From positions 13,161,855-13,225,854 of the forward strand of contig OZ038455.1 in NCBI GenBank assembly GCA_964036195.1: a stretch of 64,000 nt of DNA, read 5' to 3'. The position numbers and the translations under genes were made by a program. This document shows positions 779 to 59,192 of the stretch, in pieces (positions within the stretch are counted from its first letter, which is position 1; every line of letters starts with the position of its first letter). The notes under the pieces are model-generated. The model ran no database searches and was not told where the DNA came from. It saw only the letters and a list, made by a program, of their open reading frames with translations. This DNA comes from Sphaerolaimus hirsutus. Its lineage: Eukaryota > Nematoda > Chromadorea > Monhysterida > Sphaerolaimidae.

Positions 779-1328
779 TACTCAATGTCACTCAATACAC
801 GTTGATTGATTACGCGAATTGCTCAGTCAATACCTGGGTTGACTGAATTGGCAGCACATTATGTCCTCAATCGTCCGTTTAGTCCGCCACAATCTTTCTG
901 TCTAAATCAATTAAATGATTGATTTGGTGATTTACTCAAAAGATAGTGAGTCCAATGATTGGCCTAAGATAGTGAGTGAGTCCACTGCCAGTTTTTGGTC
1001 TGCCGCTCAGATCACGTTTCCACCAGAGTTGTTAAAAGGTACGTACGTTTACTCGAAGAATACGCGTACGCGAGTACGCGGTAAATACGTTCACATATAC
1101 TTTTAGAAAAAGTAACGTACTCACATGTACGCGTACGTTTATGAAGCATACGCGTAAAGAAAATGTATTTCTGAGAATGCAATGTGGGACATATTTATAA
1201 GGTGATTACACTCCAATGTACTCTATTTCCTCGAAACCTCCCCCCCCCGCGGGCTGGGGGGTGATTCTTTCACAGTGCAAATTTTGAGGGCGGTTAAACA
1301 ATAACGGGTTTTTCGAGGGGGTTATTAC

Positions 1329-2474
1329 CAGAGTTGGAAAAACGTATTTACGTTTACCCGAAATACCCGGTTATTCGGGTATTTATACTTACGTTTACAT
1401 TTACGTTTTCCAAAAATACCATTACGTTTTGTTACGTTTTCCTGACCAAAATACCCGGGTACTAGGGAAAACGTAAAAAACTCGTGATCGTTCACACGTG
1501 CACATGTTCAAATGGGCCGCACCACCTGTAGGCTGTAGCCAACAATATTCTTACGTTTTTGCATAAACGTAACATGTATACATACAAAAAAGCGGTGTAT
1601 GAAAAAAGTGACTGCACGCTTGCACTTACACATGGAATACTGGGTACATAAATATTTATAAATGTGTTCAAATGCTGAACACAGAAACCTTTTTGTCTGT
1701 TTGTGGAGCCTTGCGTTTATAAATTTTTTTGTGATGAATTCCGATGACGCCACTTGCAACAACTGTGAGTAGCACACGTTTTGAAACTGGAGGGGCGAGT
1801 GCAAGCTCTAGTGCCAATCCTAGATTCTGTACGATGGCCTGTAAAATGTAAATTTCATGCAAATGTCAAAACTCATGTAAAATGCCAAGCCTTCCAGGGC
1901 ACTTTGCACGACTTTAGACACTTTGCATGCCATTTGACAATGTCTGGGACTCCCCCAGAAACACCAGCGTATACTCCGGTTACTTTACACCCTGCACGCG
2001 TGGTTCCCGCTGGAAGTGTGCCAACGATGGTTAATGCGTCCGAGTTTCATTAAAAGATGACAAAATTGATTGTTGTTATAATGTTTTTCATTAACATATT
2101 CACATCGATGAATTTTTTTCATATTTTTACGGAAATCGCATGATTGAATAATCATTGACACGCTTCCAACATGAGACATAAATCAGTGCGAGGGCAGAGT
2201 ATCACGTACGCCGAGTATAGTTGGATTTGGCCACACTTACAACAGAAAGTGGTGCAGATTGAACAATTGACCCATATATAGGTAAAAATAATTGTATTTT
2301 GCCAAAGCACAATGGCAAATACTGTGCGTAAATTTTTTTACGTTTACGTTTTTTTTACGTATTCCTTGGTATTTTAAAAATACCTTACGTTTTAGTATTT
2401 ATACTTTTGATTTGGAAAAGGTATTTATGTTTACGTTTACGTTTTCCAAAAATACCAGTATTTGCACAACTCTG
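1329..2474. mobile_element. hAT-like element, CAGAGTTG termini, nested
   Basis: Termini CAGAGTTGG and CAACTCTG with perfect 8-bp duplication gttattac (1321-1328, 2475-2482). The arms use the TTTACGTTTACG word. It encloses a TGTAAAATGTC-type repeat (about 1836-1950) and a TACTC/GAGTA MITE. Confidence 0.9.
1972..2217. mobile_element. TACTC...GAGTA MITE, TA target duplication
   Basis: Ends TACTCCGG and CGCCGAGTA lie between TA dinucleotides. It is a diverged relative of the palindromic copy at 49003-49191. Confidence 0.5.
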
Positions 2475-3021
2475 GTTATTACTTAGCCACAATTTTTTCG
2501 TACTCTCTACTGATCATTGTTTGTAACATACGCCGAGGTAGAAAAATGCAACAATAAGCACCATATAGGTACATATTTATAAGAGTCTATAGACTTATAT
2601 ACCTACGTATGTAAATAGAGATGACATAAACCCTGTTCTAGCGTGACGCAGTCATTGTTTTAACGTGTGTCCTGCATTTCACAAAACACAAACTGGACGT
2701 TTTGATATTTATGTTCTCGTGTCACTCAATTTGGGTGGGGGGGGGGTTCGATGGCGGGTCTTTTAGGTAATTCGTAGTGGCCATTTTGCGGGGGGGGGGG
2801 GTAAATATTTCGAAAACCTACCCAGTTATACATATTCTATGAAGAAAAGTGCTCAGTTTTGCATTTTACTGGGAAAAAAATTTGTACTCGCATTTACACG
2901 TACGTATGAGTAAAAAAAGTATTTTACGTTTTCTATACTTTGTGATGAGTAAAAAAAATACTTTACGTTTACATATACTTTTCAAAAAATGTTCAGTAAT
3001 TCTAACAACTCTGGTTTCCAC

Positions 3022-7247: not shown

Positions 7248-10200
7248 ATGGAAGTGATCACAATATTTTACAACCTCCTTGATATGGTGTTTGCATGGAA
7301 TCCTATCTGGTATATCAAGTAAGTGACAATGTTTTATTACTTCTACATTCTTTCCAAAATGAGTCTTTTAAGTAAGCAGATTTTTTGATGTTTTAGTAGG
7401 CAAAATAGGGGTGGAGGTAAGAACATCTACAGCAAAACATCACAATTAGAATCAAGTCACACTCAAGATGCTTCACATTGTCAACATGATCATTATGTAT
7501 AGATTGTGATTAGCATTGAAAAAATCTCTGGGAGATTTATATTTAAAAAATCTCAGAAAATCTCAGAAAATATAAGATTTTTAGATATTTATATTTTTTC
7601 CACGAATTTCCAGTGAGATTTAATTATATTTTTTCCTGATTGAGAAAATCTCTCAAGAAAATCTCTCTAGGTATATTTGTCAATTTTCACCTTCAAATTC
7701 ACTAGTTCGTGTGCTTTTTTGCTTAATTCCAGCTATTTTTAACTATATATATGTGCTAATATACCCATTTTTGGTTATTTTTGCACCTATTTAAAGTTCT
7801 TATCTCCTTTTTTATGTTCTATAGCATGAAAGAGCCTATAAAAAGTCTATCTGAAATACATACTCTGTACTCGAATACTTTCAACAAGAATTCATAAAAC
7901 ATACATACTGGTACTTTTTTCAGGGGAAATGTGAATGTATTTACTCAGCACTCAAGTATATATATTTTTGAGTAAATATAAATATGTTTTAACAACTATA
8001 AAGTTGACTGGATGCTTTGCAAATACAGTTACCAAAATTTGGTGAAAAATGTCATCTGATAAATACTGTGTCGATCTTCACACATGAAAGTAATGTAATG
8101 TAATATCTACTCAAACAGACGCCTCTGGTTCAAACACCTTGAGATACCTATCGATAAAATCATAGGTAATTTAAGTTGAGAGATTTTATGAGATTTTTTG
8201 AATGGCAAGTGATTTTCTCAGAGATTTAATTATATTTACGAAAATGACCCAAGAGATTTAATTATATTTTTTTCTTGGGAAATTTTCTGAGATAATATTT
8301 AATTATATTTTCTCAAAATCGGCCATTTTTTCAATGCTAATTGTGATTAGCATTGAAAAATTGGTGATTTTAAGAAAATTAGATCAGATAAAATCTCTCA
8401 AAAATAAAATTAAATTTAATCTCTCTGAAAAAAACGCAGACAATCTATAAAAATTTAAGTCTACAATTTGAAAATACAGAAAATTTAAATGAAACATTTG
8501 TTATATTTTCGTCTCATAAAATATAAATAAAACTCTCCCAAATATAAATTAATGAATATGAATTTGAATTTTCCAAGAATTTTGGAATGCTAATTTCAAT
8601 GCAGGCGTTCACTGTGGATCTTTTTTTCGGTTGTGGCAACCAGCATTGGCCGGCTGTTTGGTCTATGGAATGGAATGCATACATTCTTCTACTTTGTTCT
8701 CAGAAGATTGCTGGACGTTACGGATTTGGATATAGATTTTATCAATTTTGGCTTTGTGCCAATTGAACAGGAAGACAAGCTGAGATTGAAGGCTGCAGAA
8801 CCAAAAATACAGCAACTGAAGAGGGTTATTTGAGTGAAAAATGTTTTTCATTCTCATGAAATACCCACTGTTAGATCTCGTGAATGAATAAAAGGGAAAA
8901 TGATGTCCAATTCCTTTCAGCTTGCTCATATTTACTTTATGAGTAAATATGTCAGTGATCACACTCAAGTTTTTTGTATACCGTATTACCTCGAAATACC
9001 CCCAAGGGGTTTATTTTTTCACCAGCACAATTTGAGGGGGGGATAATTCGAGGGGGGTTTATTCGAGGGGGGGGTCTATTATTTCGCTAGAAATTTTCGG
9101 AAATTCCCCATACTCAGACGTAGAAAAATCAAACAATTACATAGACGTATATGTGTTTATAGGCATATATAACTGTATATAAACATAAACCCTACCCTAA
9201 CATCACTCAATCATCAGTATTAACGCGTGTTCTGCATTGTACAGATCATAAACGGTGCTATTTGTCATGTATGTTCTCTTTACACTCAATCTTGGGGGGG
9301 GGGATATTTCGAGGGGGGGGGGGTGATTATGTCCTCAGCCGAATTTTTGGGTGGTATTTCGAGGGGGGTTTATTCAAGGGGGGGGGGTTAATTCGAGGTA
9401 ATACGGTAAATTTATTATGCTGCACATGTGAAATTCGAATTTGAAAGTGAATTTGTCGGTGGTCATCTGCATGCAATGGCCACCAACAAGTTGTTTTTAG
9501 GGACTCACCTAGTTAATTTGATCCACACCGCCTAGCAGTAACACCATTCAACATTCAATGACAAGGCACCGGTCAATTCGCATCGTTAAATTGCAGCAAA
9601 GAAACTGCGCCAGACTGTATGAATTTGTGCTGTCGCAACTACCATTTTACGGCAAGGGCAAATCAAATGTGAACAGGGTGGGTTTTATAAAAATTCTTTG
9701 TATACAAATGTATAAAAATTTTATTTTATTCTTGTTTCATTTTGTTCTGTTTTATTTTATTCCCAAAAGTCATTAATAATATAAAATGACATCATTTTGC
9801 AAAAATTCTATAAAAGAATCAGAATCATGCATGCAAGGACAGAAAACTGTTATCATTAGACTGCTGGGGGCATTTGTAAAATGTCATGCAAAGTGTCAAT
9901 TGTCATGATGAATGTACAGTAAATTGTCAATTGTCATGCAAAATGTCATGTCATGTCAAATGTCACGTAAAATGGCTGTTGTCATGTCAAATGTAACCCA
10001 AATGTAAATTATGTATTCAAATGTTATGATTTCTGTATCCAAAGCTTATGTTTTGTATCCAAATGTTCACATAAGATTCAGATAACAAAACAATTTCTTT
10101 GGAAACAAAACATAACATTTGTATACAAAAAAGAGATGGATACAAGACATAATATTTGCATACAAAAATAAGATTTGGATACAATTTGGATGACAATTGA

Positions 10201-13200
10201 CATGTTAATTTTTTATTTGTCATGACAATTGACACTTTAGATTACATTTGTCATGACAATTGACACTTTGAAAAAATTTTACATGACATTTAACACATTC
10301 AAAGGCTTGGGACTGTCCCCAGTTTTGTGTAAAAACAAATAAAAACATAAGCAACCAGATGAAAATTTTACAAAAAATAAGTGGTTCTATACAATTTTAC
10401 AAAAATATGAATTTTTATACAATTTTACCAAAATTTTACAAAAATTCAAATTTTTACATAATTTTTCTGTTGAAATTTCATATATTATTTTATTCTTAAA
10501 TTTTCCATTATATTTTTTATGGTTTTCTGAGAGTTTGCCAACGCAGGACGTGAATGAGAATGAAGAAGGAATGAATGGATTGACATTGATCGAGCTGGGT
10601 GCTGGCAGGGGCGGTGGTGTGAAGTGGATCAAACGGTCGCATCCTACTTTAAAGTTTATTCAAGGTCTGTATCCTTGGATGATGACAAACCCTTTGATGA
10701 TGACAATGAGGTTTTTCTAAAATGGCTTTTCAAATTTTTGAAATTTGGTTTCAAATTTTCAAATCTTTTTCAAATAACCCCTTGAATATATAATATAACC
10801 ATTTGATACACCTATAACCCTTCTATATATCTTTAACCCCGCTCCAAATACCCCCAGGGGCCAGATTTAATTCTCCCTACAGATTTGTAGGGTAGGGCGT
10901 ATGCCCAATAGATTTTTTAAAGTTCAGCCGCATCGATAGGGTGTCAAATTTTCGTTTTCCGTTTCCGTTTTCCGCAAGCAAATTTTTTCTGTTTTACGTT
11001 CCGTTTTCCGGCTGCTGAATTTTTTTTCTCCATTTTCCGTTCCCTTTTCAACTTTTTTTCTGTTTCCATTTTTCCGGCTCATTTTTCATTTTTCCGGCTA
11101 AATTTTCAGTTTTTCCACCTTTTTTCCGTTTTCCGCCTCAATTTCCAGTTTTTCCACCTTTTTTCCATTTTCTGCCTCAATTTTCCATTTTTCCGCGTCA
11201 TTTTACCTTTTTCTGGCTCAACTTTCTGTTTTCTGATCAGCCAAACTGGCAAAAATTCATGCAGATTGTCAATGATGTAAAAAAATTTCTGTTTCCAGCA
11301 AAATTACTGCAAATTTTGTCCACTTCCAGCAAAATTTCAGCAAATTTTATCCGTTTTCCGGCAAAATTTCAGCAAGTTTTTCCATTTCCGTGCAAATTTG
11401 ATTTTTCCGTTTCCTTTTTTTCCGGCATCTTTTTCCGTTTTCCAGCCGATGAATTTTTTTTCCATTTTTGTTTCCGCCAAGTGCAAATTTTTTTCCGTTT
11501 TCCGGCCGCAGAAAATTTTTTTCCGTTTCCATTTCCGGTATCTGTAAAAAAATTTTTTTGTCACCCTACGCATCGACGCACATGCACCGAGAGCAAGGCG
11601 GTTTGTAAAATATACAAAACCATCCCTTAAGGTCGCCGATATTGCAATATGACGTATATCACTTCAATTTTGGCACGGAAATCATGATTTCGTCATTTCT
11701 TGGCTGTCGGCCAATTCGTTTTTTTATTTTATTTTGTTGGGCGGGTTACTCGCATAAGTCGCGCTTTTGTACGCTCGTGCATGCATTCTTTCTTGTCGCT
11801 GCCCTCTTGGTTTCGGTTGCAGACAGTGAACACTAAAAAGTGACCACCTGACTACACAAAAGCGCGACTTATGCGAGTAACCCGCCCGACAAAATAAAAT
11901 AAAAAAACGAATTGGCGGACGGCCAAGAAATGACGAAATCATGATTTCCGTGCCAAAATCGAAGTGATATACGTCATATTGCAATATCGGCGACCTTAAG
12001 GGATGGTTTCGTATATTTTACAAACCGCCTTGCTCTCGGTGCATGTGCGTCGATGCGGCTGAACTTTAAAAAATCTATCGGGCGTACGCCCTACCCTACA
12101 AATATAGGGAGAAATAAATCTGGCCCCAGGTCTCTGCGAGGAAAGTAGAATGAATCCACCCCCTCGAAATACCCCCCCCCATCTGAAGTGATATACATCA
12201 TGTGTGCAATGTACATGATGTATTGATTGCTGCAAATGAGCACCGCAGCTCCACATAGACTACACCCCTGTTTACCACAGTAGGCACCATTGAAAACTTC
12301 TCAGAAAACAATTCATAACTTCACTATCCACAATTGTATCTTTCCAAGTAGGGTATGCACACTCATAGGGCAACACAAGCCCTACAAGTGCAATCAGAAT
12401 AATCAAAATGCATTTGAAGGCAGAGGCACAGTGCCTTGGCACCCAGATCTGGCTGGGTGCCAAACTCCTTTTAATCTAGCACTTGCTGCAGAATGCAGCC
12501 TTGGGAATCAGATTTTCAACCATGGGACACCAGGGTGCGAACTATGGTAATCAGCTTTAATGAATAAAAGAATTCATCTGTCCCATGAATTGACCACTAT
12601 GAACATTTACTAGGATTTACAGCATAACGATCAATAAGAGGTGATGCGACAGCCGACAAATTCAACATCGCCGAAAATTCAATCAGACAAAAACCGTAAG
12701 AGCTGCAGTTTTCAAAATTGACATGTGGTAAAAGCGCACTCGTGTCATATTGTGTTCGATTTTTTTCTAAAAATCTACAGTGGTTGTCAAGATATTGATC
12801 ATTGAACGAATTTTGCGGCGATATTTGTCAGCCGTCAAATATGTCCACCGTCAAATTGCCGCAAAATCGCCGCAAATTTGGTTGAATCATCAATATCTCA
12901 ACAACCACTGCAGATTTTTCAAAAATTGTTTAACACAATATTGACACGAGTGCGTTCTTTCCACATGTCAATTTTTAAAACCGTAACTCTTACAGTTTTT
13001 GTATAATCGATTTTGTGGCGACGTTGAATTTGTTGCATCACCTCGTATTGATCGTTATGCTGTGTAAATCCGGCTTACCTTCTTCTTAGGCCGGAATTAG
13101 AGCTCAGCAGCAGTCTGACGTGAAATGTCAAGTTGTTCCCTGACACTGTGACGTGAAATGATGATGACGTGAAATGATAAAAATTGAATTTTTCAATTCT

Positions 13201-16200
13201 CTCTAGTTGTGGCTGATAACACTCAGTATTGGACACGATTAGGGTATTGATTCATATATTATCCTTAGAAAATTGTAGACCCGTAGCATGATCCACACTC
13301 GTGTAATTAATTTCACGACGACATTTCACGTCATCATTTCACGTCGAATCGACGCTGAGCTCTAATTCCCGCTTAATAGAAGAGCGCCGTTCTATTTTTT
13401 TCGTCAACTTTTTTACCTGCCGTTCTATCGGAGGTGCCGTTCTATTGGAGGCTGCTGTTCTATTTTTTTCACCAATTCACCAACGTTTTTCATATGAAGA
13501 CTGTTTTATTTTTAATGAAAACTGAGCAAATTCTAATACCGTATTACCTCTTATATAAGGTATACCTTATATTGTTTTCGTCAGATTTTTAGAGCCAAAA
13601 GTTATACCTTGTATTAGAGGGTACATTATATTAGAGGGTACCTTCAATTTATTTCGCCAGATTTTCGTCTGGTCAACGATTCAAAGTTTCTCTTTGAGTG
13701 AAAAGTGCGGCCGTAAACTGACACACTTTTCAGCGGCGGAAGTCGACGAAGAGTCATCGCAGTGCCCTTCGGCACCATTGTCATCATTTTCCGCCATGTT
13801 TAGCAACCGTTTTTATTATTTTGCGTGTTTTGGCACGCAGCCAGCTGTGCCTTATTAGATGTATGCCTTATATTAGAGGGTACCTTATATTTATTTCGTT
13901 GCGTTCAAAATAGTCAAAAGTTATACCTTATATTAGAGGGTACCTTATATTTATTTCGTTGCGTTCAAAATAGTCAAAAGTTATACCTTATATTAGAGGG
14001 TACCTTATTTTAGAGGGATGCCTTATATTGGAGGTAATACGGTATCTAAGGATCAATTTGTAACTTAGCATCTATATTTCAATGGCTTGAACGTACTCAC
14101 CATCAATTTCGTGTTCTGGCACCCTTCCAACGTAGTATCTACCTGCCATTCTATTGGAGGTGCCGTTCTATTGGAGGCTGCCATTCTATATATTTTGTGA
14201 GTGCAAAAAAGGGCCAAAACCTGCCGTTCTATCGGAGGTGCCATTCTATTGGAGGTATGCCGTTCTATTAGAAGAAATATGGTAATAGAAAACACACGTT
14301 ATGTGATGAAGCCAGCGAAGTTAGAGATATCTGCCACCGTTTCCGGCAACTCCAAGACCGTAATGAGCGACGGTCTCTGTCGTGGTCGGATTTTCCTTTG
14401 TAGCCAAAACGTCCACTTGCCGGCAGGCAGCCGAATATATTTATTTCGTTGTTGTGTGTTGAAAGCGTTGTTTCGTTGTTGCGTGTTGGGTTTCAAAGTT
14501 GTTTTACGTACTTCATTGGTGATCAGATACAGCATGTATTACAAAATACGCAAAGTCAGCAAGCTTCCTATTTGAAGTTTCTATTGCTAACTTATTTCCT
14601 GTGGGTCGTATCGAGAGAGTGTCTGAGTTGTGTAGTAAAAACTCTGAAAGTTGCAGAAATGCGGAAAATTGTATAGAAAACATGACTACAGTAATTTCCT
14701 AATTATAATGCACAAATACAGTACATTCACCTAAACAGTTGGCTTGCACAGAGTGCGCACACATTCTAATAATTACGGTACATAAATACAGAGTACAAAT
14801 TGGGCAAAAGGAAACCATTAATCTTGCGAGGCACCGAAATCGGCAAAGTTGAGCTAGTTACTAATCTGTTTCTATTTATCAAAGAGTGTTGATGCAAATT
14901 GGAAACTAATTTGATAGAGATGGAAACTGGAAATAGTGTCGTAAATGTTCCTAAGTAAATATAAGCAGAACAGGGTATTAACTTTAAACTTGGTAATCAC
15001 TTCCTGAAAACATGTAACTAACAAATGAGCAAATTAAGGTTTTAATTGAGGTAAATGGGTATCATAATTAGTTTCAGCTGAAATTCTACTTATAAAACAT
15101 GTCAAATACATAATGCGAACAGGGTTCAAATATAAAGACAAATGCAAATGCAGGACTCTAAATTAATAAAACTATACAACATGTGTTGAGCTAAATATAC
15201 AGGGTACCATTTCTCCAATCAGACGCTGGCCTAAATAAGTTATGTAAAGTAACCACGCATTACAAAACTTGTCTTTTCCATTTTACATGTAAACCATGCA
15301 AATATATATACTGTATTTCCGCGAAATACCCCCAGGGGTGATTGTTTCAGAGTGAGAATTTTGAGAGAAAAATGTGAGAAATGCAACAATAACCACCATT
15401 TATAAGTTTTTACAGCCTTATATAAGGATGTAGATAGTATAAACGATGTTATAATGTAACACAGTAAGTGTTTTGAACATCTGTTGTGCATTTCCCAGAC
15501 CACAAATTCATAGTGCCGATTTTGAGGGGGGGGGGGGTATTTTGAGGGGGGGGGGTATTTTGAGGAAATACAGTATTGAAATAACCAGAAAATTACGGCG
15601 AGTCGAATGAGCCTCATTTTGTGTTTATCAACCTAAATATAACATAATTGACTTTTTAACTTGAACATTCTATATAAACCTCCAAATAACTTATAAATTA
15701 CTTTGCAAACTAAATATTCTCTATGGATAAGTTATATAGTGCATGAAACAAATAAAATAGATAAAATAAACCTAATTATCAAATCTCTGTATTCTCTGCT
15801 TTTCATTCCACCACGGTCAGCACACGTTAAGATAATCATTAAGGCACTTTAGAACAGGGTTTGTATTTACCATGTAAATACATACCGCATTACCTCGAAT
15901 CCCCCCCCCCCTTGAATTAACTCCCCCTTGAATTAACCCCCTTGAATTAACCCCATCTCAAAATGGGCTGGGGAAATAATAAACCCCCCTCAAAATACCC
16001 ACCCCCCGGAATGATGTACATCATGTATGCAATGTACATGATGTATTTATTACTACCGTATTTCCTCGAAATACCCCCAGGGGGTTTATTTTTTCAGAGT
16101 GGAAATTTTGAGGGGGGTATTTCGAGGGGGGGCTTATTCGAGGGGGGGGGGGGTATTCGTCAGAAATTTTCATGAAATTCATAGTAAAGAGTACACTTTT

Positions 16201-19200
16201 ATATACACAAAACAGGTAATCAACGTGTCCAAGTAGGGTATATTTGGACATATCAACGTCTATCGTTACACAAACTAGTTGCAAACTGCAACCAATATTT
16301 ACATAATGTACACTGCATACATCATGTACATAATTACAGACGGGGGTATTTGGTTTCGTGGGGGGCGGGGTTTATTCAAGGGGGGGGGGGTAAATCGAGG
16401 AAATACGGTACTAATTTGCATTGCAGCTACACTTATATGCTCATTTGTGTACAGATGTACATCTATAGCCCCAATATAACCTTTTTCCCACGTTTTTTAC
16501 CATTCTTGTGTATGAAAAAGCGTATTTTTTACTATGAATTTCACGAAATTTCTGATGAAATAATAACCCCCCCTCAAATAAGACCCCGTAGAATTAACAC
16601 CCCTCAAAATTTGCTGGCGAAATAATCAACACCCATGGGGGTATTTCGAGGTGATACTTTACTTATATAAGTCTGCACTCTACAGTAACGATGGCAAAAA
16701 AAGATGCGAAAATTCGAAAACATTTTCGAATTTTCGAATTTTTATTTCACCCCTAGAAAAAACACTTAAAAATCGATTTAATTTTCAAAAAATTCGAAAA
16801 TTCGAAAATTCGAAAATACTTTTCGAATTTTTCAGGCAATTCAAGGCACTCTTAAGTTCAACGTACTAAATACAACGAAAATTGATACGCGGTGCTTATG
16901 AAAAAGCGAAACAAAACAGAAAAAGGTCCAAAAATGTTGAAATGTAAACTGCCCTGTAAAATGTGAAATGTCATGCAAAGTGTCAAAAGTTATGAAAATG
17001 CCCTGGAAAAGTGGCAAACATATTTGCCATTTTCCACAGCATTTCCATGACTTTAGACACTTTGCATAACATTTGACATTTCACAGAGCATTTTACAGGT
17101 GTCAGGGACTGCACATATTTATAAGTAAAAGAGATGTGATCAAAGATATACTCCAGCGTCCAGCGACATTACACTTTATAATGAAACCTACCATATCCCA
17201 TCTGAATGAAAGAACAAACATAAAATTTTGTCATCATATTAATCAAACTGCGTTGATAAATATGATGAAAATTTTTTTGTTTGTTCTTTTATTCAGATGG
17301 GTTATGGTAGATTTCATTGTAGGTGTAATGTCGCTGGAGTATAAGAGTGGTTTTGAGTATTGGTTTGAGAAGTACCCATATTTCGTGCAGTTAGCACTGT
17401 ATGCACTGAGTATGCTCAGTGTGCTATACTCGGGCGAAATTACACCCTACATTTTTCTGGTGGTAACACTCCATCATGACGTCATAACTGCAGTCCGCAG
17501 TGAACTTACGGCTGACTGAACTGGTTCAGAGTCAGGATGAAATGGAGTGCAGTGGTGAATCAGTTCACAAGTTTTCAGTTGGCTGTCTGCCAGCCAAAGA
17601 TATAAATCATATATATTTGTAGATTAGCACGTCTGCCGAGTATAGCCACTTCCAAAACAGTCCAAATTCTGTGTTTAAAGCTTCAGATTCAATATTTTTC
17701 CAAAAAAATTCGAAAAATGGCCAAAAAAATTCGAAAATTGCCAAAAAAGACTTGAAAATTCGAAAATTCGAAAATTAAATTCAAAATTCGAAAATTAATT
17801 TCAGGAAAAATTTGAAAATTCAAAAATTCATTTGGGAAAAACACTTAAAAATTTAAATACTTTTTTTTGGAGGGTTTGCCATCGTTACTCTACAGACGTT
17901 AATATTTACATGTGTAGTATTTGATTGAATTACTACAATATACACATGTCCGTTATCGTTGCATTTTCCTACCTCAGTGTACGTGAACAACGATGAATTA
18001 GTACTGGGAGTTCGCAAAATTTCTGGCGGAATACTACCCCCTCGTTTAACCCCCTCAAAATTCTCACCATGAACAAATAAACCCCCTGGGGGCACTTCGA
18101 GGAAATACGGTAATACATGAGTGAATGCTTTGTTTTGTTGAATGACAATTTTCTGTGCATTTGAGTTGAATATCGTATGCGAGTGTGATTTTATGCAGAA
18201 AATTTAGTTGCCTGTTTCATTTCTGTTGAATATCTCCGGGAGAAAGCGAATGAAGCTGCTGAAGACAGGACAGGAAGAAACATTTTAGAAATAGGCGGGG
18301 TACTGTACACACTGTATATTCTGGCGCCATTGGTACCTGGCGCCGTATTTTCCAAATGGCGCTTGACGCCCTTCTTCCGTGGAACCCTTCGAGCCTGGGA
18401 CTCTTTTTCCGAATGGCGCCATAGTGCTAACGATGGTAAAAAAATTCGAAAATTCAAAAACTACCCAAAAAAGGAAAACTACCCAAAAAATTTGAAAACT
18501 AAATTCGAAAATTCGAAAAGTCATTTTAGAAAAATTACTCAAAGTTTAAATACTTTTTCTGGGAGGTTTGCCATCGCCATTTGCGTTTGTCGCCTGTTAT
18601 ATGGCGCTTTCCATCACTAGTTACGTACACAACATCAACCACCATTCTCAGGTCTCGATCTGCAGCCCTCCGTACATTGTCCTGATGTAGTTCAAGGAGA
18701 TGTGCACAATTTACCATACGCTGATGAATCTGTGGACATTGTCTTGAATGTGGAAAGCAGTCACTGCTATAATGTAAGTGTCTCTCCTCATCTTGAGGAT
18801 TAAGCCGGAGTTACAGCACAACGATAAATTGAAGGTGAAGCGACAAATACATGTCGCTGCAAATTCGATTACACAAGAACGCTTAAAGATTTCCATCAAT
18901 AAATATACATGTTGAAAGCACTAACCGATATCTACATCGTGTCCAAAAATTATCCAAATTATCCAAAAAGCTCCAAAAATGTCGCTTCATCTTCAATTTA
19001 TCGTTGTGCTGTAACTCCGGCTTTAGAATTGGATTACCTTGGGAATGATCTTTGTGTGCAAAATCTTTAGGGAGATTTTCTGCGGAAAGTATCCAGATAT
19101 TTTCTGAGGAAATCTCTCCAATTTATCAAGCTATCATTCCTGATTTTCAGATTCTCTCTGAGATTCAATTGTGTTTTCCAAATAATATGAGAGATTTAAG

Positions 19201-22200
19201 TCTAGTTTTTCAGAGACACTTTCTGAGATTATACCGTATTTCTTCGAATTATCCCCCCTTGCATTAACCCCCCTCGAATTAACCCCCCCCCCTCAATATG
19301 GGCTGGGGAAATAATAACCCCCCCTCGAAATACCCCCCTCTGGAATGATGTACATCATGTATGCCATGTAAATGATGTATTTTTTACTACTAATTTGCAG
19401 AGTTGTTAAAATACCGGTATTTTTGGAAAGCGTAAGCGTAAGCGTAAATACACTTTCCAAATTTTCAGTATGGATACTGAAAGCGTAAGGTATTTTTAAA
19501 ATACCTGGGAAAGCGTAAATAAAAGCGTAAGCGTAAAATTTTTTTTAAGAGACGTTTTCTCAGTGAATTCTTTCCAAATCAAGCTCTCAGCGACATTTTT
19601 CTGATGTCAACTTAGTAGTCTGCCTCATATGTTGTTTGGCAATTCATCGGCAGCGACACTTACCGTATTTCTTCTAATAGAAGAGCACCGTTCAATTTTT
19701 TGGTCAACTTTATTTGCCTGCCGTTCTATGGGAGGTGCCGTTCTATTGGAGGCTGCCGTTCTATTAGAAGAAACACGGTAAGTCATCTTTGTATCTTCCA
19801 ACTTGGAGTTACTGCTGTCGACGGCGACAACATCGTCGTCGGAATCCATTTTCAGCCCAAATTTTTTTATCTGAAGCCACGATTTTGCTCGACGACACAG
19901 TATTAGCAAGACACAATTTGTAAATGTGCCACTATTTCCAGCACATTACTGCATGCACGCAGTAATTTTTTGGTATGCAGTTTTGTTCATTCTTTTTTGT
20001 GGTTTTATGCTTTTTCAAAAGTGTAAAACTGAACCATGTGAAAAGCTTTTTTACGCTTTTAGTACCTGGGTATTTTGGCCGGGAAAGCGTAAAAAAGCGT
20101 ACGGGTATTTTATGAAAGCGTAAGCGTAAGCGTAAGTATAAATACCCATTTACCCAGGTATTTCGGGTAAGCGTAAATACGCTTTCGCAACTCTGCTAAT
20201 TTGCATTGCACATACACTTATATGCTCATTTGTATACAGATCTATAGTCCCAATAAAACCTACCGTAAATCCTCGAATAAGTCCCCCCTCGAACAACTCC
20301 CCCCCTCGAATAACTCCCCCCTGTAAACTGACTGAGGAAAAAATAACTCCCCCCTCGAATAACTCCCCCCTCTTTTATGGGTGGGAACAAAGTCCACGTA
20401 TAAAAAACGTATGTACCTATGTATATGATCATTAAAAGCATTCATTATTTTGCAGTTTATGCACACTAGCATTGATTTTATTGCATGAATTACGGGATTT
20501 CTATTCTGGCTCACACGTTTATGCAGCCTACTTAACCCCATTCAGATGATATACTGATCAAGTATTTTACTCAATATTCCGACGAAGAAATAACTCCCCC
20601 CCCCCCTCGAATAACTCCCCCCCTCGAATAAGTCCCCCTCAAAAAATTCTGAGGAAAAAATAACTCCCCCGGGGACTTATTCGAGGATTTACGGTATTTT
20701 CTCACGTTTTTTACCGTTTTTGTGTACGAAAAAGCACTTCTTAACTTTGAATTTCACGAAAATTTCTGACGAAAAAATAAACCCCCCTCGAATAAGCCAC
20801 CCTCGAATAACCCCCCCCTAAAATTTTGCTGGCGAAATAATAAACCCCCATGGGGGTATTTCGAGGTAATACGGTATTTCCTCAAAATTAGCCATTTTGT
20901 GTGTGGTTTTGGAGCGATAGCTGATCACAAAGAAACCTTTTCAGGATCAAGCCAAAGTTTTCCAGGAAGTTCAACGTGTGCTCAAGCCAGGCGGTCACTT
21001 TGTTTGGTGCGATGCTCAACCAAACTCAGTTATGAAATGCTTCTGGGCTGCGATACATTCGGCTGAACAATTGCACGTTAGCATAATACTCTTTGTTCAT
21101 CGATTACCAACTTATCCTTGTGCGTCTCCCCAGAAAAGGTTTCATTAAGGTGGACTTACAGCATAACGATCAATAGGAGGTGATGCGACAAATTCAGTGC
21201 GGGTGAATTACAAACACTCAAGAACGTTTAGAGATATCCATCCCCAAATTGACATGTTGAAAGCGCTAACCGATATTAGCATTTGATAAATCACCATTTT
21301 TTTGGAAAATATATATAAATATATCACTCCGATTTCTTTGAAAATATAAATATATATAAATCTCTCTAGCTTTTCTGAAAATATATACCGTATTTCCTCG
21401 AATTACCCCCGGGGGGTTTATTTTTTCAGAGTGAAAATTTTGAGAGAAAAAGGTCAAAAATGCAACAATAACCACAATTTACAAGTTTTTACAGCTTTAT
21501 ATAAGGATGTAGATGGTACATATAAACGATGTTCTAACGTAACACAGTAAGTGTTTTGAACGTCTGTTATGCATTTCCCGGACCACAAATTCATAGTGCC
21601 CATTTTGAGGGGGGGGGGGTATTTCGAGGAAATACGGTATAAATCACTGAAAAAATCACTCAAAGCTAAAAAAATTACAAAAAATCACTCATGCTTTATT
21701 TCAACTTTTAGCAATATTGTTGCCTTTATTTACCACTTGCAAGCAAAAGAATGTGTTTAAACATCCCACAATTCATTTATTCTTTCTTAAGCGGGAATTA
21801 GAGCTCAGCGTCGATTCGACGTGAAATGATGACGTGAAATGTTTTCGTGAAATTAATTACACGAGTGTGGATCATGCTACGGGTCTACAATTTTCTAAGG
21901 ATAATATATGAATCAATACCTTAATCGTGTCCAATACTGAGTGTTATCAGCCACAACTAGAGCGAATTGAAAAATTCAATTTTTATCATTCCACGTCATC
22001 ATCATTTCACGTCACAGTGTCAGGGAACAACTTGACATTTCACGTCAGACTTTTGCTTGCAATAGTCTGACGTGAAATGTCAAGTTGTTCCCCGACGTAA
22101 AATGATGACGTGGAATGATAAAAATTGAATTTTTCAATTCGCTCTAGTTGTGGCTGATAACACTCAGTATTGGACACGATTAAGGTATTGATTCATATAT

Positions 22201-27922: not shown

Positions 27923-28672
27923 CCAGGGGACAGTCCCACCTAGGGTGTCAACAAAAACTTTTTGGCGGAAAACGGAAATGGTAACGAAAATTTTTTTGCA
28001 CTTGCCGGAAAACGGAAACGGAAAAAATTTTGCACTTGCTGGAAAACGGAAAACGGAAAAATGAAAGGCCGGAAAACGGAAACGGAAATGGAAAAATTTA
28101 CCGAATATATGCCGGACACGGAAAAAATTTGCTGAAATTTTGCCGGAAATGGAAAAAAAAATTGCAGAAATTTTGCTAAAAATGGAAATAAATCACATAA
28201 TTGAGAGCCTGCATGCATGTTTACTAGTTTGGCTGAAACAGAAAACAAAAAATTGAGCTGGAAAGTGAAAAAAGTTGGAAAAGCAGACAATTGAACCAGA
28301 AAATGGAAAAAAATCAGAAAAAACTGAAAATTGGAAAATGAGCCGGAAAAAATTGAAACGGAAATATAAAAAAAATTTGCAGCCGGAAAACGGAAATGGA
28401 AACGGAAAAAAATTGCCTTCTGAAAGCGGAAACGAAAAACAGAAAATGGAAAGTTGACACCCTAGTCCCACCCAAGCCCTGTAAAGTTACATGTCAAATG
28501 TGAAGTCAAATGCAAAGTAAAGTGTCAATCAAAAAAAAAGATTTTATTACTGAACTTTGCATGACAATTGACACTTTACTTTAATTGACTTTAATTGACA
28601 ATTTACTTTGCATTTCACTTTACATTTGACACTTTACTTCTTTACAGGGTTTGTTACTGCCACCAGGGGAGT
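27923..28672. mobile_element. CAAGCCCTGTAAAGT-type element with a nested hAT element
   Basis: The left edge GGGGACAGTCCCACC and, after the nested hAT, CAAGCCCTGTAAAG pair with TTTACAGGGTTTGTTACTGC at the right. The words are AAAGTGTCAA and CAAATGCAAAG. A cleaner copy is at 55700-55945. Confidence 0.6.
27941..28464. mobile_element. hAT-like element, TAGGGTGTCA termini, GGAAAACGGAAA word
   Basis: Perfect duplication gtcccacc (27933-27940, 28465-28472). GGAAAACGGAAA words fill the element. Confidence 0.93.
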
Positions 28673-35385: not shown

Positions 35386-38300
35386 TCACCATATTTCACA
35401 CTTGTCCACAGGATTCATTGGACTGCCCAGGGGGCATTTAAATGCTTGTGAAAATTCGTGTAAATTTTTCAACGGTTCCACAGCTCGCAGTTTCGCTGGA
35501 GCGTGCAAATCGTGCACCGCCATTTGACGGAGATAATTTTGCCTCGTCAGGGAGCACCAATTCTGAGTGTGAACACAAGCTGAATGTAAATGCATTTCAT
35601 TGTACCTCCGCACACTTGTTTTCACACGAAATTTTGAAAACTCGCAAATCAGCATAGAACGCATTTGAGTTTTCTACAATGAGATGGCCGTCGCGTCAAC
35701 TACAGTTGACGGAGATTGAAAACGACTCATTGTGGAAAACTCAAACACGTTTGAACTATGAAGCTCATTTATGAGTTTTCGAATTTTCCTGTGAAAACTA
35801 GTGTGCTGACACAGATTTTCTGCTTTTTGAGACATACCGTATATCCTCGAAATAGCCACCTCAAAATACCCCTCGAAATACCCCCTCAAATGGGGCAAAA
35901 TGTATAAACAGACAAAATTAAAGTTGTAAAGACAAAATTTTACAACAAGTACCCTTGACTACAACAAACAAATACTGGATTTATAAATAAGAATGCAACA
36001 TGATTTTAGTCTGTGTCACAGTTATGTCATTTCTTTTTCCTTATTATTGTCACATAAAATTTCTTTCTTTTTCCGAACAACTCCACTGAAAATGCCATCA
36101 TGTGAAAAAGGACAAACTTACATTGGTATATGCAATGAAAAACATTTGCTCGGGGCTGTAGTCACCAAAACCAGGTAATTTGCTAGTGTAAGCCCCGCCT
36201 CGCTCCAACTTTTTCTGCCATGCCTAAAGAATAAGTAAGTCACTCACATTTTGATAAAAAATTCAGAAACAAAATCGATGCGTACGGAAAACCAGAGTTG
36301 TTAAAATACCGGTATTTTTGGAAAGTGTAAGTGTAAGTGTAAATACACTTTCCAAATTTTGAGTATGGATACAAAAAGTGTAAGGTATTTTAAAAATACC
36401 TAGGAAAGTGTAAAAAAAAGTGTAAGCGTAAAAATTTTTTTTAGAAAGAGCTCTCACTGTTGAGTAGTGATGGAATGGCGCCATTGGCGCTTGGCGCCCT
36501 TTTTCTGTGGCGCCGTTGGCGCCTGGCGCCCACATTCTGAAAGGCGCCATGGCGCCCTTGGCGCTTGGCGCCCTTTTTCCGTGGCGCCATTGGCGCCTGG
36601 CGCCCTGCTTAAAAAGGGCGCCAAAAAGGCGCCAGCAAGGTTTCAAGGTGAGTGCTGTGAAAATGGAAAAAAATCATGAAAAACGCATCCGTGGATGATC
36701 TAAATTAGCCAGAAAAATGGACGAAGTGGTGTGAGTCGGTGGAAATCTTTCGCCCAACGTTTCATCAGATGTGTCTGACGACGGATCAGAAGATAAGAAT
36801 GATGGACCGTCGAACTTGCAAAATTATAAAAAGGATTCAAATCGTTGCAATTCCGTTTCGTCCATTTTAGGGAAACATTGATTGGAAAAGCCTATTTGAA
36901 GTGAATGGATTGTTATCAAATGACAATTTCCGTTGTGTTTGAATTCGTCATGTGGATTTTTTTGAAATTTTGTTGCTAGATGTGTTTTTGTTCATTACAT
37001 CCTGAAGAACGCGAATTAAAACGTGAATGCGTGTACCACCGTGCTGTAGCAACATTTTTAGCACACGCAGGCACTTATTGATCCTGGAGCCCTTGGCGCC
37101 TGGCGCCCTATTTTCCAGATGGCGCCATGGCGCCTTTGGCGCTTGGCGCCCTCTTTCCGTGGCGCCCCTGGCGCCTGGCGCCCACTTTCCGAATGGCGCC
37201 ATGGCGCCCTTGGCGCCTGGCGCCCTTTTTCTGTGGCGCCCTTGGCGCTTGGCGCCCACATTCCGAATGGCGCCATGGCGCCCTTGGCGCCTGGCGCCAT
37301 TTTTTCTGGCGCTTTTCCATCACTACTGTTGAGCATTAGAAAACACCACTATTTTTACCTTTAGATCAATTTATGTGTCATTTTCATGCATTATTTCACA
37401 TTTTACTGCCTTTTATGAAACATTTCAGACTGTAACAAATACTGTAGTGGTATGAAGTTCCCTAATAATGGCACCTTTTCAGTGTTGATATTTTATTGAT
37501 TACGCAATGCAATACACACTGTTTAAATGCAAGAATGGACATGCAGCAAATGTCAATGCAAAAGCCAGTTGACTTTGTGTCCAGCTGGTGAAATTCCATT
37601 GATTTTGTCCTTTTTACAAAAGTATGATGAAACTGTAGAATACCATGAGTACTGATCAAAGACTAGTTTGCACATTTGCCATATTTTCTACATTCAATAC
37701 ATAACTGCATGTGTGCACTGTGCAGTTATTTGTTGTACATGACCTTATTTTATGCTTTCTCAAAAGCATAAAACAGGGCCATCTGAAAGAAAAAATACAC
37801 TTTCGCAACTCTGCGGAAAACGCACCTTGAATGCAGTCTTCACGCCAGCGTTATCAGCGATATTTTCGCCCAATGAATTTCGCCCATCCAATTTTAGAGT
37901 GGCGCCAGCGCCGAGATCAATAGAACTGAAAGGAGAAGTTTGATATTTTACCTAGATGGGGAAATATCGGGTCAGGCCCAAATGGCATCTAATCCGCTTG
38001 GCATCTGGACCCGGATAGCATGGATTTCTGCCTGCTTGGCATCTAGACCTCCTTGGCATCTATCCAATGCTGGATGCCAAACGGACTGTGGCATAGATGC
38101 CAAACGGGCGGGTAGGGCCAGATGCCAAGCGTGCAGGGGGGTCTACATGTCCAGTGTATCATGTGCACAAAAAATATGACTCCAAAATGTGTAAAAATTT
38201 CAATGTTTTTCCCAATTATTATTTTCAGATGTCAAGTGTCTCTGAATTGTTTTATTTAAATGCAAATATGAGTACCGTTTGAAATGGGGAAGAAGGGTAG

Positions 38301-41300
38301 ATACATGCATGCCCATGTAAATTCATAAATACAATTCTTTAGTAACCCTGTAAGAGTGCATATGGCTAAATTTCAATCAAACACAGTATTTGGATGAACA
38401 CAACACTAAATATATTGATCAATATTTTATTTCACATTTCAAATTGGCTGATTTTGAGAAAATTATATCAAATATGATCACAGAAAATCTGTTAAAAATG
38501 CAAAATTCCCAAAAAATCCCAAAATGCAATTCCTACCAAAAAATGGCTTGATAAAAATTTATTCTAGTAGCCACTCTTACAGGGTTACTAAAGAATTGTA
38601 TGTATGAATTTGCATGGGCGTGCATGTATTTATCTACCCTTCATCCCCATTTCAAACAGTACTCATATTTGCATTTAAATAAAAAATTCAGAGACACTTG
38701 ACATCTGAAAACAATAATTGGGAAAAAAATTGAAATTTTTACACATTTTGTATTCATATTTTTTGTGCACATGATCAGGGTTGGCAAAATCTCAGAAAAA
38801 AATAAAAATAAAATAAAAATAAAATGGAATATTCAAGAATAAAACAAAATAAAATAAAATGGAAAATTTAAGAATAAAAATAAAAATTGTATAAAAATTC
38901 GAATTTTTGTAAAAATTTTGTAAAATTGTATAAAAATTCGTATTTTTGTAAAATTGTATAAAAATTCATATTTTTTGCAAAATTTTGCTCATTGCTTGAG
39001 TCTCTACCTGTTTATTCATGGATCTGGGGGCAGTCCCAAGCATTGTAAAGTGTCAAATGTCATGTAAAATGTCATGCAAAGTGTCAATTGTCATGACAAA
39101 TGTTAAGTAAAGTGTAAATTGTCATGACATAAAAAATTTAAGAATCAATTGTCAAGCAAATTGTGTTCAAATCTCATGTTTTATGTCGAAATCTTATGTT
39201 TTGTATCCAAATTATGTTGTTGTTGACTCCAAATCTTATGTGAACATTTGGATACAAAAACATAAGATTTGGATATAAAACATACTATGGATACAAAAAC
39301 ACAAGATTTGGATACACAATTTACACTTTGCATGACATTTGTCATGACAATTGCCACTTTGCTTGAAATTTAACATGACACTTAACATTTTGCATGACAA
39401 TTGATACTTTACTTTACATTTGTCATGACAATTGACACTTTGCATGACATTTTACAAATGTGCCCAGCACACTCCAGTAGTCCTTCTACTGAAAATGCAA
39501 ACCATTCTTATCAATAATTGTAACTTTACACTTGCAGCTAGATAAGAATACATACTGCATGCAACTTTTGAAAAGTAAGGGAAAAATTTGTCACAGGTTT
39601 ATCATGTATAGGTCTAATTATAACATTTTTCTGGCCTTGCATGCATGTTTCTGATTTTTTGTAAAAATTTTGTACAATTTTTGTAAAATGTGTCATTTTA
39701 TTTTATTTATGACTTTTGGGAATAAAATAAAATAAAATGAACCAAAAATAAAATTAAAATAAAATAAAATTTTTATACAATTTTTATACAATTTTACTAA
39801 AATGAATTTTTATAAAACCAACCCTGCACATGATACACTGGACTGGATAAACAGGTGTACTCCTATAAAAATAAGTTGCAGGGTGACGGGTTCAGCTAGT
39901 AATATTTCAGCTGTGCAAGTAAACCGTGGGCCGTCTCGTGGGTAGTGATGTATCGGCACCGGGGCACCGGTGCCCCGGTGCTGGGCACCGAAGGGCACCA
40001 GCACCGGTGCTGGGCACCGAAGGGCACCAGCACTGGTGCTGGTGTGGTGCCCTTTCGATTTTGAGAGGTGCCCTGTCAGTGCCGGTGCCATGTTTTCCAG
40101 AATAGCACTGGTTCTGGTGCGGTGCCAATTTTCAGCCGGTGCCCATGGTGCTGGCACCAGCTGAAAAAACTGGGGCACCGGGAAAGGCACCGGCAGGGTT
40201 CAAGGGTTTGAAATGTGTGTCATCTTCAGGACATGTCTGTTCATTTTAAAAGTGACCCATTCAAATGCACGTTGAACACGTGCTCTCGGTGAGTTTTTAA
40301 TTGCTATTCTTATTACAAACATAAAAAACTAGCAAAATTAAAAACAAAAAATGATGGATTCGTATCAGATAAGAGTAATTCTATGTATCAGAATAGAGCT
40401 ATTTTAACCAAACAACAAACTTGGCGCTTGTGAAAGAGCTAGCCATTTTGTTGATGCTGGCGCTAACAAAAAGGGTGCCAAGACGCTTTTGGCGCATGGC
40501 GCCATTTTGTTTCGGTACTATTGGTGCTCAGCGCCATGCCAATTAGAAGCGCCATGGCAGTTGGCGTCAGTTAGCGAAATAGGTTTTGACACTAGTGGTC
40601 AGGGATAGTGATGGAAAAAGCGCCAGGCTTTCGGCGCCAAGCGCCAAAAGCGCCATGGCGCTTTTCTGACCCCGGCGCCAAGCGCCAATGGCGCCAGAGG
40701 GTAATGGCGCCAAGCGCCAATAGCGCCAGCGCCAAAAAAATCGTTCTACAATTTGTTGGTAGAAATATGAGTGCATAACTGTGAGTGACGTACCGCTGAA
40801 GTCATAGTAGTCTATTGAACATTTTTGCTCATTCAAACAACCACTAAATCGGGGAAAAATTTCTCAAATAATCGCTCTGGAGAGATACATATCTGGTCGA
40901 TTTGCGGTGGGGGGTGGGGGGGGGGGGCTCGAGGGATAAATAGTAGCCTAAAATTTAGCCTCAGGTTAGATAGATATTTTAGCTGAGTGGCCCGGGAATA
41001 GATAGATAGCTGGAGCATTTGTTGGGGAGGTAACCCCCCCCCCCCGTCCAACCCCCGCCAGACTGAACCCCTGATTTAGACTGCAAGAAAGAATTACGAG
41101 CGAAGCACAAAAGGGGATTTACCGCGATTTTAACACCTCTGCTTTTATTCAATGTATGTATCTATTTATATAAAGTCTACCCTAATATTTATCAACATTT
41201 TTTCAGTTGCCTCAAAATTGATCAACTGCAGTGTCGATTTTACCATATTATAAAAAAATTTTTATTATCATGGTTGGCGCTTTTTTGGCGCCATTTAAAA

Positions 41301-44300
41301 TGCCGGCGCCAGGCGCCAATAGCGCCACCAGAAAATGGCGCCATGGCGCTTTCTCAGATCCCAGCGCCAAGCGCCAATGGCGCCAGAGCGTTTTAGCGCC
41401 AAGCGCCAAAAGCGCCGTGGCGCTTTTTGCTTTGGCGCTAGCGCCAGGCGCCAGCGCCATGGCGCTTTTCCATCACTAGTCAGGGAACAGCGCCAGTGCA
41501 CTTTTGGGACTCTGCGCCAAGTACTGGCGCTTTTTATATCACTACAGCAAATTTGACCCGGTGCGGTGCCTTTCAGTGCTAGCACCGGCAACCCGCTGGT
41601 GCCCTTAGGTGCCGGTGCCATTTTTTTCAGAATGGCACCGGTGCCAGTGCGGTGCAGTGCCATTTTTTGGCCGGTGCCCCAGGGTGCCAGGTGCCCTTTC
41701 CACGCAATGGGAAAGGTGCCGGTGCGGTGCGGTGCCATTTTTCCCGGTGCCTCTAACATCACTACTCGTGGGTGTGTGGGGGGGGGGGGTTCAGCCCGCT
41801 TGGCATCTACACCCACACGGCATGGAGACCGCATGGCATGTGCCGGCATGTAGCCCGCTTGGCATCTATGAGACGATAGATGCCACGCGGGTCTAGATGC
41901 CATGCAGGCAGAAATCCATGCCACGCGGGTCCAGATGCCATGCAGGTTGAGATGCCGAGCGGTGCAGACTCGAAATATCTACCTAATCGGAAATTCGATG
42001 TCTACGAAAAATACAAAAAGTGACAGTTCAGAAGAAAAAATCAAAGGTGACATCGTTCGTGCGTACCACCAACACTAGTTTATTATGAAAATTTTGAAAA
42101 ATGTGCTGAAAACAATGATCGACAGTCGCGATGATAGGGTATTTACTGTAGGAGAAATGGCATTCGTACGGGCTGAAAAATTCCGAGCTTTCAACTATCT
42201 ATCTTTTGTTATGAAAATTGAAGATTTAGAGCGTCAAATATTCCATTGCCAGGGCTGGGACAAACATTTATTCATAGATGGCCTAATCATGCATAGTACC
42301 GTATTTCCTAGAAATACCCCCTGGGGGGCTATTTTTCAGGTGCCGGTGTCGGCAGGTATAAATGAAAACGGTTGGCGCACCTGTATTGCTTAACAAAGCA
42401 TTGGGCTCTCTCGTGGAAGCGTTTTGCTGTTGTTTCATCCCACCAGTTGCGTAAATTGCCCTCGGCGTCATATCGACCGCCTGAAATCGACAAGAAAATG
42501 GTTGAGGACAAAAAACCGGCTCAGGGCATTGATGTTGAAAACACACATAAATTACAAACTCTTTCACCTTGTATCATTGCGTATGTTGCAAAAGACACGG
42601 AAATAACAGACCGTATTACCTCCAATTGTATGTATACCTTCAATTGATTTTGTCACTTTTTTTGTACCTTCAATTATAGTATGGCTTCCATTGTTTTTGC
42701 CAAAGATTGCAAACATTGACCCACCGTGAACGAGGCAATTCATTTTATCAAAATAGGATGTGATAAAATGGTGAACGAATTGACAGAGAGCAGACTTAGT
42801 ACCCTTTTTCACCATTTAGACCATTGCATGTTGCCTTTTGCATTGCATTTTGCACCATTTTCATCATTGTCTGCCATGTTTGGCCACGATTTTTACGATT
42901 GAATGCGTCTTAGCATGGAATGCAGTCTTATTGGAGGTATACGTATATCTTCTATTGGAAATGTGCCTTTTATTTATTTCGTCACATCGAAACACTGTGC
43001 CTACCATTGCAGGGTGCTTTTTATTGGAGGTATGCCTACAATTGGAGTTAATACGGTAAGTATATTCCACCTTACAACTTATCACAGACACCCATACGTC
43101 AAATTAAGGGCATTTAAAAAATTGACATTTTCATCCGAAAAGCGCACCTTGATCATCAAAGGCATGCGACACTTCATGGCCTACCACCGCACCGGCCATG
43201 GCATAGGTCACGTAGTCCGGTACGTGTGACAATAAAAGGGGGTACTGCATTATGCCAGCTGGGAAAACTGCGGAGGGGTGGATTTTGTGGTTACGGTAGG
43301 GTCGGAAATTTAATGATACCTATTCGGGTTCGGTTTGGGTGACGGTTTTACGTTGTCGAAAATGTTTGGTATAAAATCGGGTCTGATAAAATTTGGGGTC
43401 AGGTATTCAGCGAAAAAGACCAATTGAGAAATGGAAAACGACGCGAGCAAAACAAACTTCATCGATTCAATTTACATCAACCGTGATAAATGTCCTCCTT
43501 CATTGAAATTTACACCTGTATCCCCAATCAGTCACACTAAAAACGTCAACCAAAGTAAATACCCCATAGATACTTACTCATCTTACTCATCTCATCAAGT
43601 ACCCCACAAAGTAAACATACTTACTCATCTGATTTGAATTTGGGGCATAATACGCGTCGACTTGGCATGGACATTCAAACCAAATCTGATCACTTCTTCC
43701 AGCTGTCAGGAAATTATTGAATTCCTTTTGATTTTGCAATTTTCTGATTGTCAAGGTGGTTTTTAATATTGCTTCGTCCTCGGGTAATGCTTCCTGAAAT
43801 TGCGACGAAAAAACGTGAACTCGCTTCAACGAAAGACGATGGAAATAAAATGACACATTGCGTGTGCACACACTAGTTTACTGGCAGATATTGGTAAACT
43901 CATAAATCGGCTTTGAACCCATTTCAGTGTACTGGAATTAGCTATTCTTGATCCCTATCAACTGCAGTTGACAGACACTTAATTCTAGTAAACTCAAATG
44001 CTTTCAAAGCCGATTTATGAGTTTACCAAAATCTGGCAGTAAACTAACTAGTGTGCGCAGCGCCATTGGAAGGTAAGGAAAGAAGCAAAAAAACCAACGT
44101 AAGGCCAGTCAATCATCAATCTGGAACTATTAAAAAGCCAATCAGGATAGCCAATTTTATACGTCAACTTTCCAGCTTTTTGAATGGCATATTGTCGCGT
44201 TTTATCATCCATCCAAGAAACGGTGTGCAAGCGATCGATAAACATTTGTCGAATGTCCACTGCGAGTTCAGTCATCTGAAATGAATTTATAATTGTTATA

Positions 44301-55699: not shown

Positions 55700-55945
55700 G
55701 GGGGCAATTCCAAGCCCTGTAAAGTGTAAAGTAAAGTGTCGAATGTAAAGTCAAATGCAAAGTAAAGTGTCAATCAAAACAAAAAAGAAAAAAATTTATT
55801 ACTGAACTTTGCATGGCAATTGACACTTTACTTTGCATTTGACTTTACATTTGACACTTTACTTTGCATTTGACTTTACATTTGACACTTTACTTTTCAT
55901 TTGGCTTTACATTTGACACTTTACTTTACACTTTACAGGGCTTGG
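55700..55945. mobile_element. CAAGCCCTGTAAAGT-type element
   Basis: GGCAATTCCAAGCCCTGTAA and its inverse ending CAGGGCTTGGGATTGCC. The arms of AAAGTGTCAA and GCAAAGTAAAG words are inverted. It interrupts an A3 MITE at CCACC. Confidence 0.7.
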
Positions 55946-58551: not shown

Positions 58552-59192
58552 TAGGGTTGGAAAAAAACGTTTTTTTAACTCAATGTTTTTTTATAAAAAA
58601 CATGTTTTTTTAAATAAAAAACGTTGTTTTTTTAAAAGCTCCCAGATGTGACCTTGTGTCAACATATATAGGTATATCAGACAGTGGCAATACTCTGTGA
58701 TGTTATATATGACCATATAATGTCTGTGGAGCCATGGGATAGCAATATAAGTGGTGATTTGTGTCCAAAATATCCATTTTTCATCGACATATCATTCATA
58801 TATCGCCTTATAGTCGAATGTTCGTGACTTCAGGTAAAGTTTGGCATGGAATAGTGATCAACCAAGGTTATAAAAGGAGGTTGTTACTTTGGGAGTGAAG
58901 TTACACACTGTGGAGGTACATGGAAGCACATTACCTCAATATTATATACTACAGCAACATATGACAGCTTATTAACCCATGGTAGCACATATAAATGGAT
59001 ACTTTGATACTAAAAATGCCACAAAACCAATGAAAACAACCACAAATGTCAATTTGTGTGTGAAATTGCGCGCTTGAGCGCAAAAATTTTGCAAAATACC
59101 TGGTGCTTAGTACTAAAAATTTCGGCCGATGTTTTAAAAAAAAAAAACATTTCGGACATCATGTTTAAAAAAAAACCCATCGGCCAACCCTA
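58552..59192. mobile_element. hAT-like element, TAGGGTTGG termini, AACGTTTTTTT word
   Basis: TAGGGTTGGAAAAAAAC to GGCCAACCCTA, perfect duplication attatatc (58544-58551, 59193-59200). Confidence 0.92.

Follow-up and report, generated by a model that had tools for sequence, protein, structure and literature searches.

The stretch of DNA that we analysed, hereafter the window, covers 64 kb (C7:13161855-13225854) of the genome of the nematode Sphaerolaimus hirsutus, which comprises 762 contigs and 348 Mb; all coordinates below are positions within the window. It contains a gene for a class I methyltransferase (Methyltransf_11 in Pfam, E = 1.1e-15), the predicted third intron of which coincides with a hAT-like transposable element. 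Among 14 protein matches, the closest relative came from another nematode, Plectus sambesii (E = 1.4e-31, 35% identity, 95% of 223 residues). The predicted exons 2 to 6 span positions 8605-21076 of the plus strand and their phases agree. Exon 2 (8605-8824; ...FINFGFVPIEQ...QQLKR) is an open frame with AG/GT borders that matches the nematode protein P0002 and an exon of a paralogue on C1 (84% nucleotide identity, 175 nt). Exon 3 (9597-9677) consists of host DNA up to 9673, with the paralogue exon aligning to 9597-9673, followed by the first four bases of the element (CAGG), and exon 4 (10547-10664) encodes methyltransferase motif I (LIELGAGRGGG). Exon 5 (18652-18773; ...NLPYADESVDIVLNVESSHCYN) has a counterpart in the paralogue, and the end of exon 6 (20945-21076; DQAKVFQEVQRVLKPGGHFVWCD...) was placed at the GT that aligns with AAC/GTGAGC in the paralogue (slashes mark exon-intron junctions).

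Frame enumeration and site scores predict that intron 3 occupies 869 nt on the plus strand (9678-10546), with the donor AGG/GTGGGT at bases 5-6 of the element and the acceptor GCAG/ at its final two bases. The element itself, a non-autonomous hAT-like copy of 873 bp similar to miniature inverted-repeat transposable elements (9674-10546, plus strand; CAGGGTGGG...CCAACGCAG), was delimited by end-to-end alignment with a sister copy and with other genomic copies, and both its ends are those of the predicted intron, unless the acceptor lies 15 nt inside. The sister, located on the minus strand (38776-39826), has the ends CAGGGTTGG/CCAACCCTG and a perfect 8-bp duplication (cacatgat); once reverse-complemented, it aligns with the intron-3 copy from the first to the last base, differing by substitution at 16.1% of the 832 sites aligned. 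Two similar octamers, AATGTGAA (aatgtgaa, 9666-9673) and GACGTGAA (gacgtgaa, 10547-10554), flank the intron-3 copy on the plus strand as the 5' and 3' copies of a target site duplication. They match at six of eight positions, and the chance that two random 8-mers match at least this well is 0.007 for the window and 0.009 for exonic sequence. Ranked among random window 8-mers by the target profile of the element family, the 3' copy reaches the 99.2 percentile and the 5' copy the 85.8 percentile. An earlier note on this DNA had given these same positions and letters for the element, its duplication and the ends and duplication of the sister, and our analysis bears them all out.

A search of the genome for the element family yielded 4140 first-look candidates, the best 40 of which were scored, the intron-3 copy among them, and the other 39 fetched. 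Both ends were located in 34 of these 39; two pairs had common flanks, leaving 32 distinct insertions, or 33 with the sister, so that the comparison set used here comprises 34 copies including that of intron 3 (the five copies without a clear end stayed unmeasured). A perfect 8-bp duplication borders all 34 fetched copies with both ends found, a count to be read with the fact that the end-finding threshold also weighs this duplication. The 33 other copies carry CAGGGTTGG in 30 cases and CCAACCCTG in 31, and their target preference approximates GTCATGAC, with T at position 2 in 26/33 and A at position 7 in 22/33. The hAT superfamily has short inverted ends that start with CAG and the target preference nTnnnnAn. 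The ends and duplications observed here fit a non-autonomous element of the hAT type; the ends of maize Ac/Ds are given as C/TAGGGATGAAA (PMC3260210). The site occupied by the intron-3 copy, with A at positions 2 and 7, fits one of the two preferred target positions. Within the window itself, six elements (counting the sister) combine related ends with perfect 8-bp duplications, versus none in 100 shuffles. No copy of the element turned up in viral and GTDB contigs scanned for its exact ends. Among the 34 copies, that of intron 3 is the most diverged (13.1% from the majority consensus vs 4.8-11.8% for the others), the only one with a mismatched duplication (6/8) and the only one with a terminal AG and the left end CAGGGTGGG. 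Its divergence and its mismatched duplication speak against the earlier description of this intron gain as recent.

The same genome also contains an uninterrupted version of the exon. Using the joined 62-residue exon 3+4 as query, we retrieved three candidates and scored all of them: exon 3 and exon 4 of the window gene, and the C1 paralogue, where all 62 residues lie in one open frame with 84% amino acid identity. As a protein query, the joined exon found no relative outside this genome, and a phage tblastn search gave no match. The paralogue exon that corresponds to exons 3+4 (192 nt, 83% DNA identity) is free of the element and contains a single copy of the target site, GATGAGAA. Its first base is that of the 3' copy of the duplication and its third base that of the 5' copy, as expected if each duplicate changed once. 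Besides this fused exon, the paralogue has exons 2, 5 and 6, and its introns 2, 4 and 5 occupy the positions they have in the window gene, with intron 3 absent; since it has kept these three introns, it is not a retrocopy. The two genes differ by a dS of 0.461 and a dN of 0.126 (dN/dS = 0.27; 224 codons, the last three compared lying beyond the point where exon 6 is predicted to end). Half of this dS (0.23) exceeds the divergence of the element (0.131), which is consistent with an insertion that followed the gene duplication, although this comparison is a consistency check only, as coding and element sites may differ in rate.

We scored the splice sites with site frequencies that make only the relative values meaningful. 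The donor at element bases 5-6 is the best of the 11 GTs found in 9600-9760 (3.45; 98.7 percentile of window GTs), whereas the usual donor end of the family scores -0.45. The donor-improving change of T to G (GTTGGT to GTGGGT) and the terminal AG described in the earlier note were found in the intron-3 copy alone of the 34. For the acceptor, which that note had placed at the last two bases of the element, the outcome is mixed: this site (10546) is in frame but shares the final 40 nt of the element with two further AGs, one of which, also in frame and with its last base at 10531 of the plus strand (TTTTCTGAG/, 15 nt inside the right end), has a higher score (1.31, 88.5 percentile, vs -2.59) because of its pyrimidine tract. 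Both acceptors are frame-neutral, that at 10546 adding 12 nt (RDVN) and that at 10531 adding 27 nt (with the residues SLPTQ). An AG also occurs at this distance from the right end in 23/33 other family copies, which favours the earlier AG as the acceptor used at birth and would explain why splicing was possible from the outset. The acceptor at 10531 has the triplet GAG, which is unfavourable in this position, the four other scored acceptors of the methyltransferase gene are all CAG, which favours the one at the element end, and a terminal CAG exists only in the intron-3 copy. Present use of 10531, a variant compatible with the gain of an intron from the element, is a serious possibility to which we nevertheless give less than even weight. 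Eight of the copies with the AG at 15 nt (L015, L017, L019, L021, L022, L025, L027, L033) have TTTTCAG 17 nt from their right end; this comes close to the ideal 3' splice site but would shift the frame (4+17+8 = 29 nt). Nine of the 33 have no AG within their last 40 nt.

We consider it very probable that a non-autonomous hAT-like element inserted into an exon of the methyltransferase gene after the duplication of this gene and that it is now removed as intron 3. The element would have entered a single exon and doubled 8 bp of its coding sequence, in an orientation such that its left end would supply the 5' splice site (CAGG/GT) and its right end a pyrimidine tract and an AG, so that the spliceosome could excise it. 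Excision would leave a frame-neutral addition (8 + 4 = 12 nt for the acceptor at the element end, as the earlier note had correctly calculated) in a linker of variable sequence that immediately precedes motif I. This linker, between LYE and motif I, is 14 residues shorter in P0002 and of similar length with another sequence in the paralogue, and 4 or 9 extra residues there would plausibly be harmless. The intron was probably born with the earlier AG, and later changes, retained by selection or by drift, would have strengthened the donor (GTTGGT to GTGGGT) and created the final AG of the element (CCCTG to CGCAG), with the terminal CAG gained after birth. Since the gene appears to have stayed constrained, the element must presumably be spliced out. 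The core interpretation of an intron gain, as already proposed in that note, is well supported by the coincidence of the element ends with those of the predicted intron, the duplication, the preserved frame and the uninterrupted exon of the paralogue.

Several observations weigh against this interpretation or reduce its reach. The splicing of intron 3 is predicted from sequence, and the terminal CAG, preceded by a broken pyrimidine tract, makes a mediocre acceptor by the site frequencies used (62.7 percentile). The three changes at the element ends (3/18 end positions) are within the overall divergence of this copy, so that selection on them is not demonstrated. Our comparison covered this genome, where the search revealed only two genes that have the exon; the polarity of the event is therefore read from the paralogue and the signature of duplication, not from a species tree. 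The dN/dS value averages both copies and is thus no proof of constraint after the insertion, and the N- and C-terminal parts of P0002 had no convincing match in the window, so that the predicted gene model extends over exons 2 to 6. When private changes were counted against each of 12 outgroups, the window copy exceeded the paralogue in five cases, fell below it in six and equalled it in one.

Some of these points would also agree with a different fate of the gene, in which the insertion killed this copy and exons 3 and 4 are pseudogene remains with no functional splicing: the splicing is a prediction, the gene ends were not found in the window, and the other gene copy could supply the function. 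We nonetheless judge this scenario improbable. All five predicted exons have open frames and GT/AG borders. Of the 24 columns invariant among 12 homologues, 22 fall within the predicted exons, and the window copy and the paralogue keep the same 20 of them, the two others (L to K, F to V) having changed identically in both genes. The dN/dS between the copies is well below one, the window copy shows no consistent excess of change (three private changes relative to P0002, against eight in the paralogue), and its frame and splice signals are intact despite an old insertion (13% element divergence).

We reject as highly improbable that the element entered a short pre-existing intron whose splice sites then moved to the element ends, its remnants becoming exon: the linker is indeed 14 residues longer than that of P0002, with only four of these derived from the element and the duplication, but the paralogue, with a linker about equally long, has no intron at the site and its exon aligns straight through. 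The joined exon 3+4 is open and in frame and holds 11 in-frame GT-AG pairs of at least 30 nt, but inspection by eye found no pair among them that is of usable length, has an acceptor rich in pyrimidines and also leaves motif I intact. An older intron at this site is therefore unlikely.

A bolder idea is that the capacity to make introns is latent in the entire family and that the genome may hold further such introns, some with acceptors that slid to the element end, as proposed for intron 3. We regard it as speculative and rather unlikely. In one orientation, the left end of the family consensus reads CAGG/GT, and its right end offers a strong pyrimidine tract followed by an AG at a distance of 15 nt. 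Splicing from this GT to this AG leaves 4+15+8 = 27 nt, the element-derived part of which is stop-free in every phase; if the idea were true, about half of the insertions into exons could be removed silently. The length of the open stretch across the empty sites of other copies failed to discriminate between coding and non-coding sites. Pfam searches with the first 90 residues of six such stretches gave nothing, and neither did the joined exon of the methyltransferase gene, so that this test of the flanks has no power.

Other features of the gene and of the window can be briefly described. About 10 residues just after motif I, which we take to be the helix following the acidic loop of this fold, are present in 11 of the aligned homologues but absent from the two paralogues and the nematode protein P0002. 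We dropped a gene-model error as explanation because P0002 and the paralogue share the short loop; judging from the alignment, these three proteins are a subfamily shortened in the loop after motif I. Intron 4 contains a large inverted repeat, recognised by eye (~10885-12120; arms AACCATCCCTTAAGGTCGCC... and complement), and intron 5 a hAT-like element (19398-20195; ends CAGAGTTGT/GCAACTCTG, perfect CTAATTTG duplication) that provides the contrast of an ordinary intronic insertion. Two nested hAT-like elements (1024-3013 and 1329-2474) have perfect 8-bp duplications, GTTTCCAC and GTTATTAC, as do two further elements with CAG/TAG-type ends (36293-37813 and 58552-59192). Weak matches within the window at 28.5 and 55.8 kb were set aside, as they look like another short element family. 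By eye, this short repeat family (~28480-28650 and 55712-55948; ends like CAAGCCCTGTAAAG/CTTTACAGGGCTTGG) is distinct from the intron-3 element, the interior of which holds sequence related to these repeats, as if it contained an older nested copy. On the minus strand, 44048-48418 contains exon pieces of a neprilysin-like M13 peptidase; one of three open frames tested there passes the Pfam cut-off (Peptidase_M13_N, E = 3.6e-12) and two match below it. The same region includes a tRNA match (44320-44393, minus strand), possibly a tRNA-derived repeat.

At the methyltransferase locus, the source family, the target duplication, the empty exon of the paralogue and the changes at both element ends can all be read, which makes the steps from insertion to intron directly testable. 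The kind of event is already known, from Introners and from maize Ds1 acting as an intron. In an animal, the tunicate Fritillaria borealis, numerous introns, mostly without GT-AG, have reportedly been proposed to derive from transposon-like elements; our case is similar in concerning an animal and a transposon-like element, and differs in involving one GT-AG intron. We recognised no animal hAT-type Introner in the literature by title or abstract start, a search that left most subscription journals outside and implies no claim that such elements are unreported. A close anatomical parallel is found in Aureococcus, where Introners carry both splice sites and add 12 bp, of which the element contributes 4 and the duplication 8; the result is four extra amino acids compared with an intron-less relative (PMC9860276). 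The intron-3 element has the same 4+8 nt composition, and its intron-less relative is the C1 paralogue. According to the same work, many Introner families have duplications and inverted ends; copy numbers per genome range from 5 to over 2,000 among families, and median lengths from 30 to 654 nt (PMC9860276). In contrast, we predict one intron of 869 nt from a family of 4140 candidates not known to form others, and the terminal AG and better donor of the intron-3 copy occur in none of the 33 other copies. Maize Ds1, a hAT element, is spliced out of exons, for example in Adh1-Fm335 (cited in PMC3260210; PMC5432752). It resembles the intron-3 element in its C/TAGGG-type end, its 8-bp duplication, its exonic position and the placement of donors and acceptors close to opposite ends. 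Nevertheless, Ds1 has three donors and two acceptors and Adh1-Fm335 is a mutant allele, whereas the insertion in the methyltransferase gene appears to be old and to have kept the frame.

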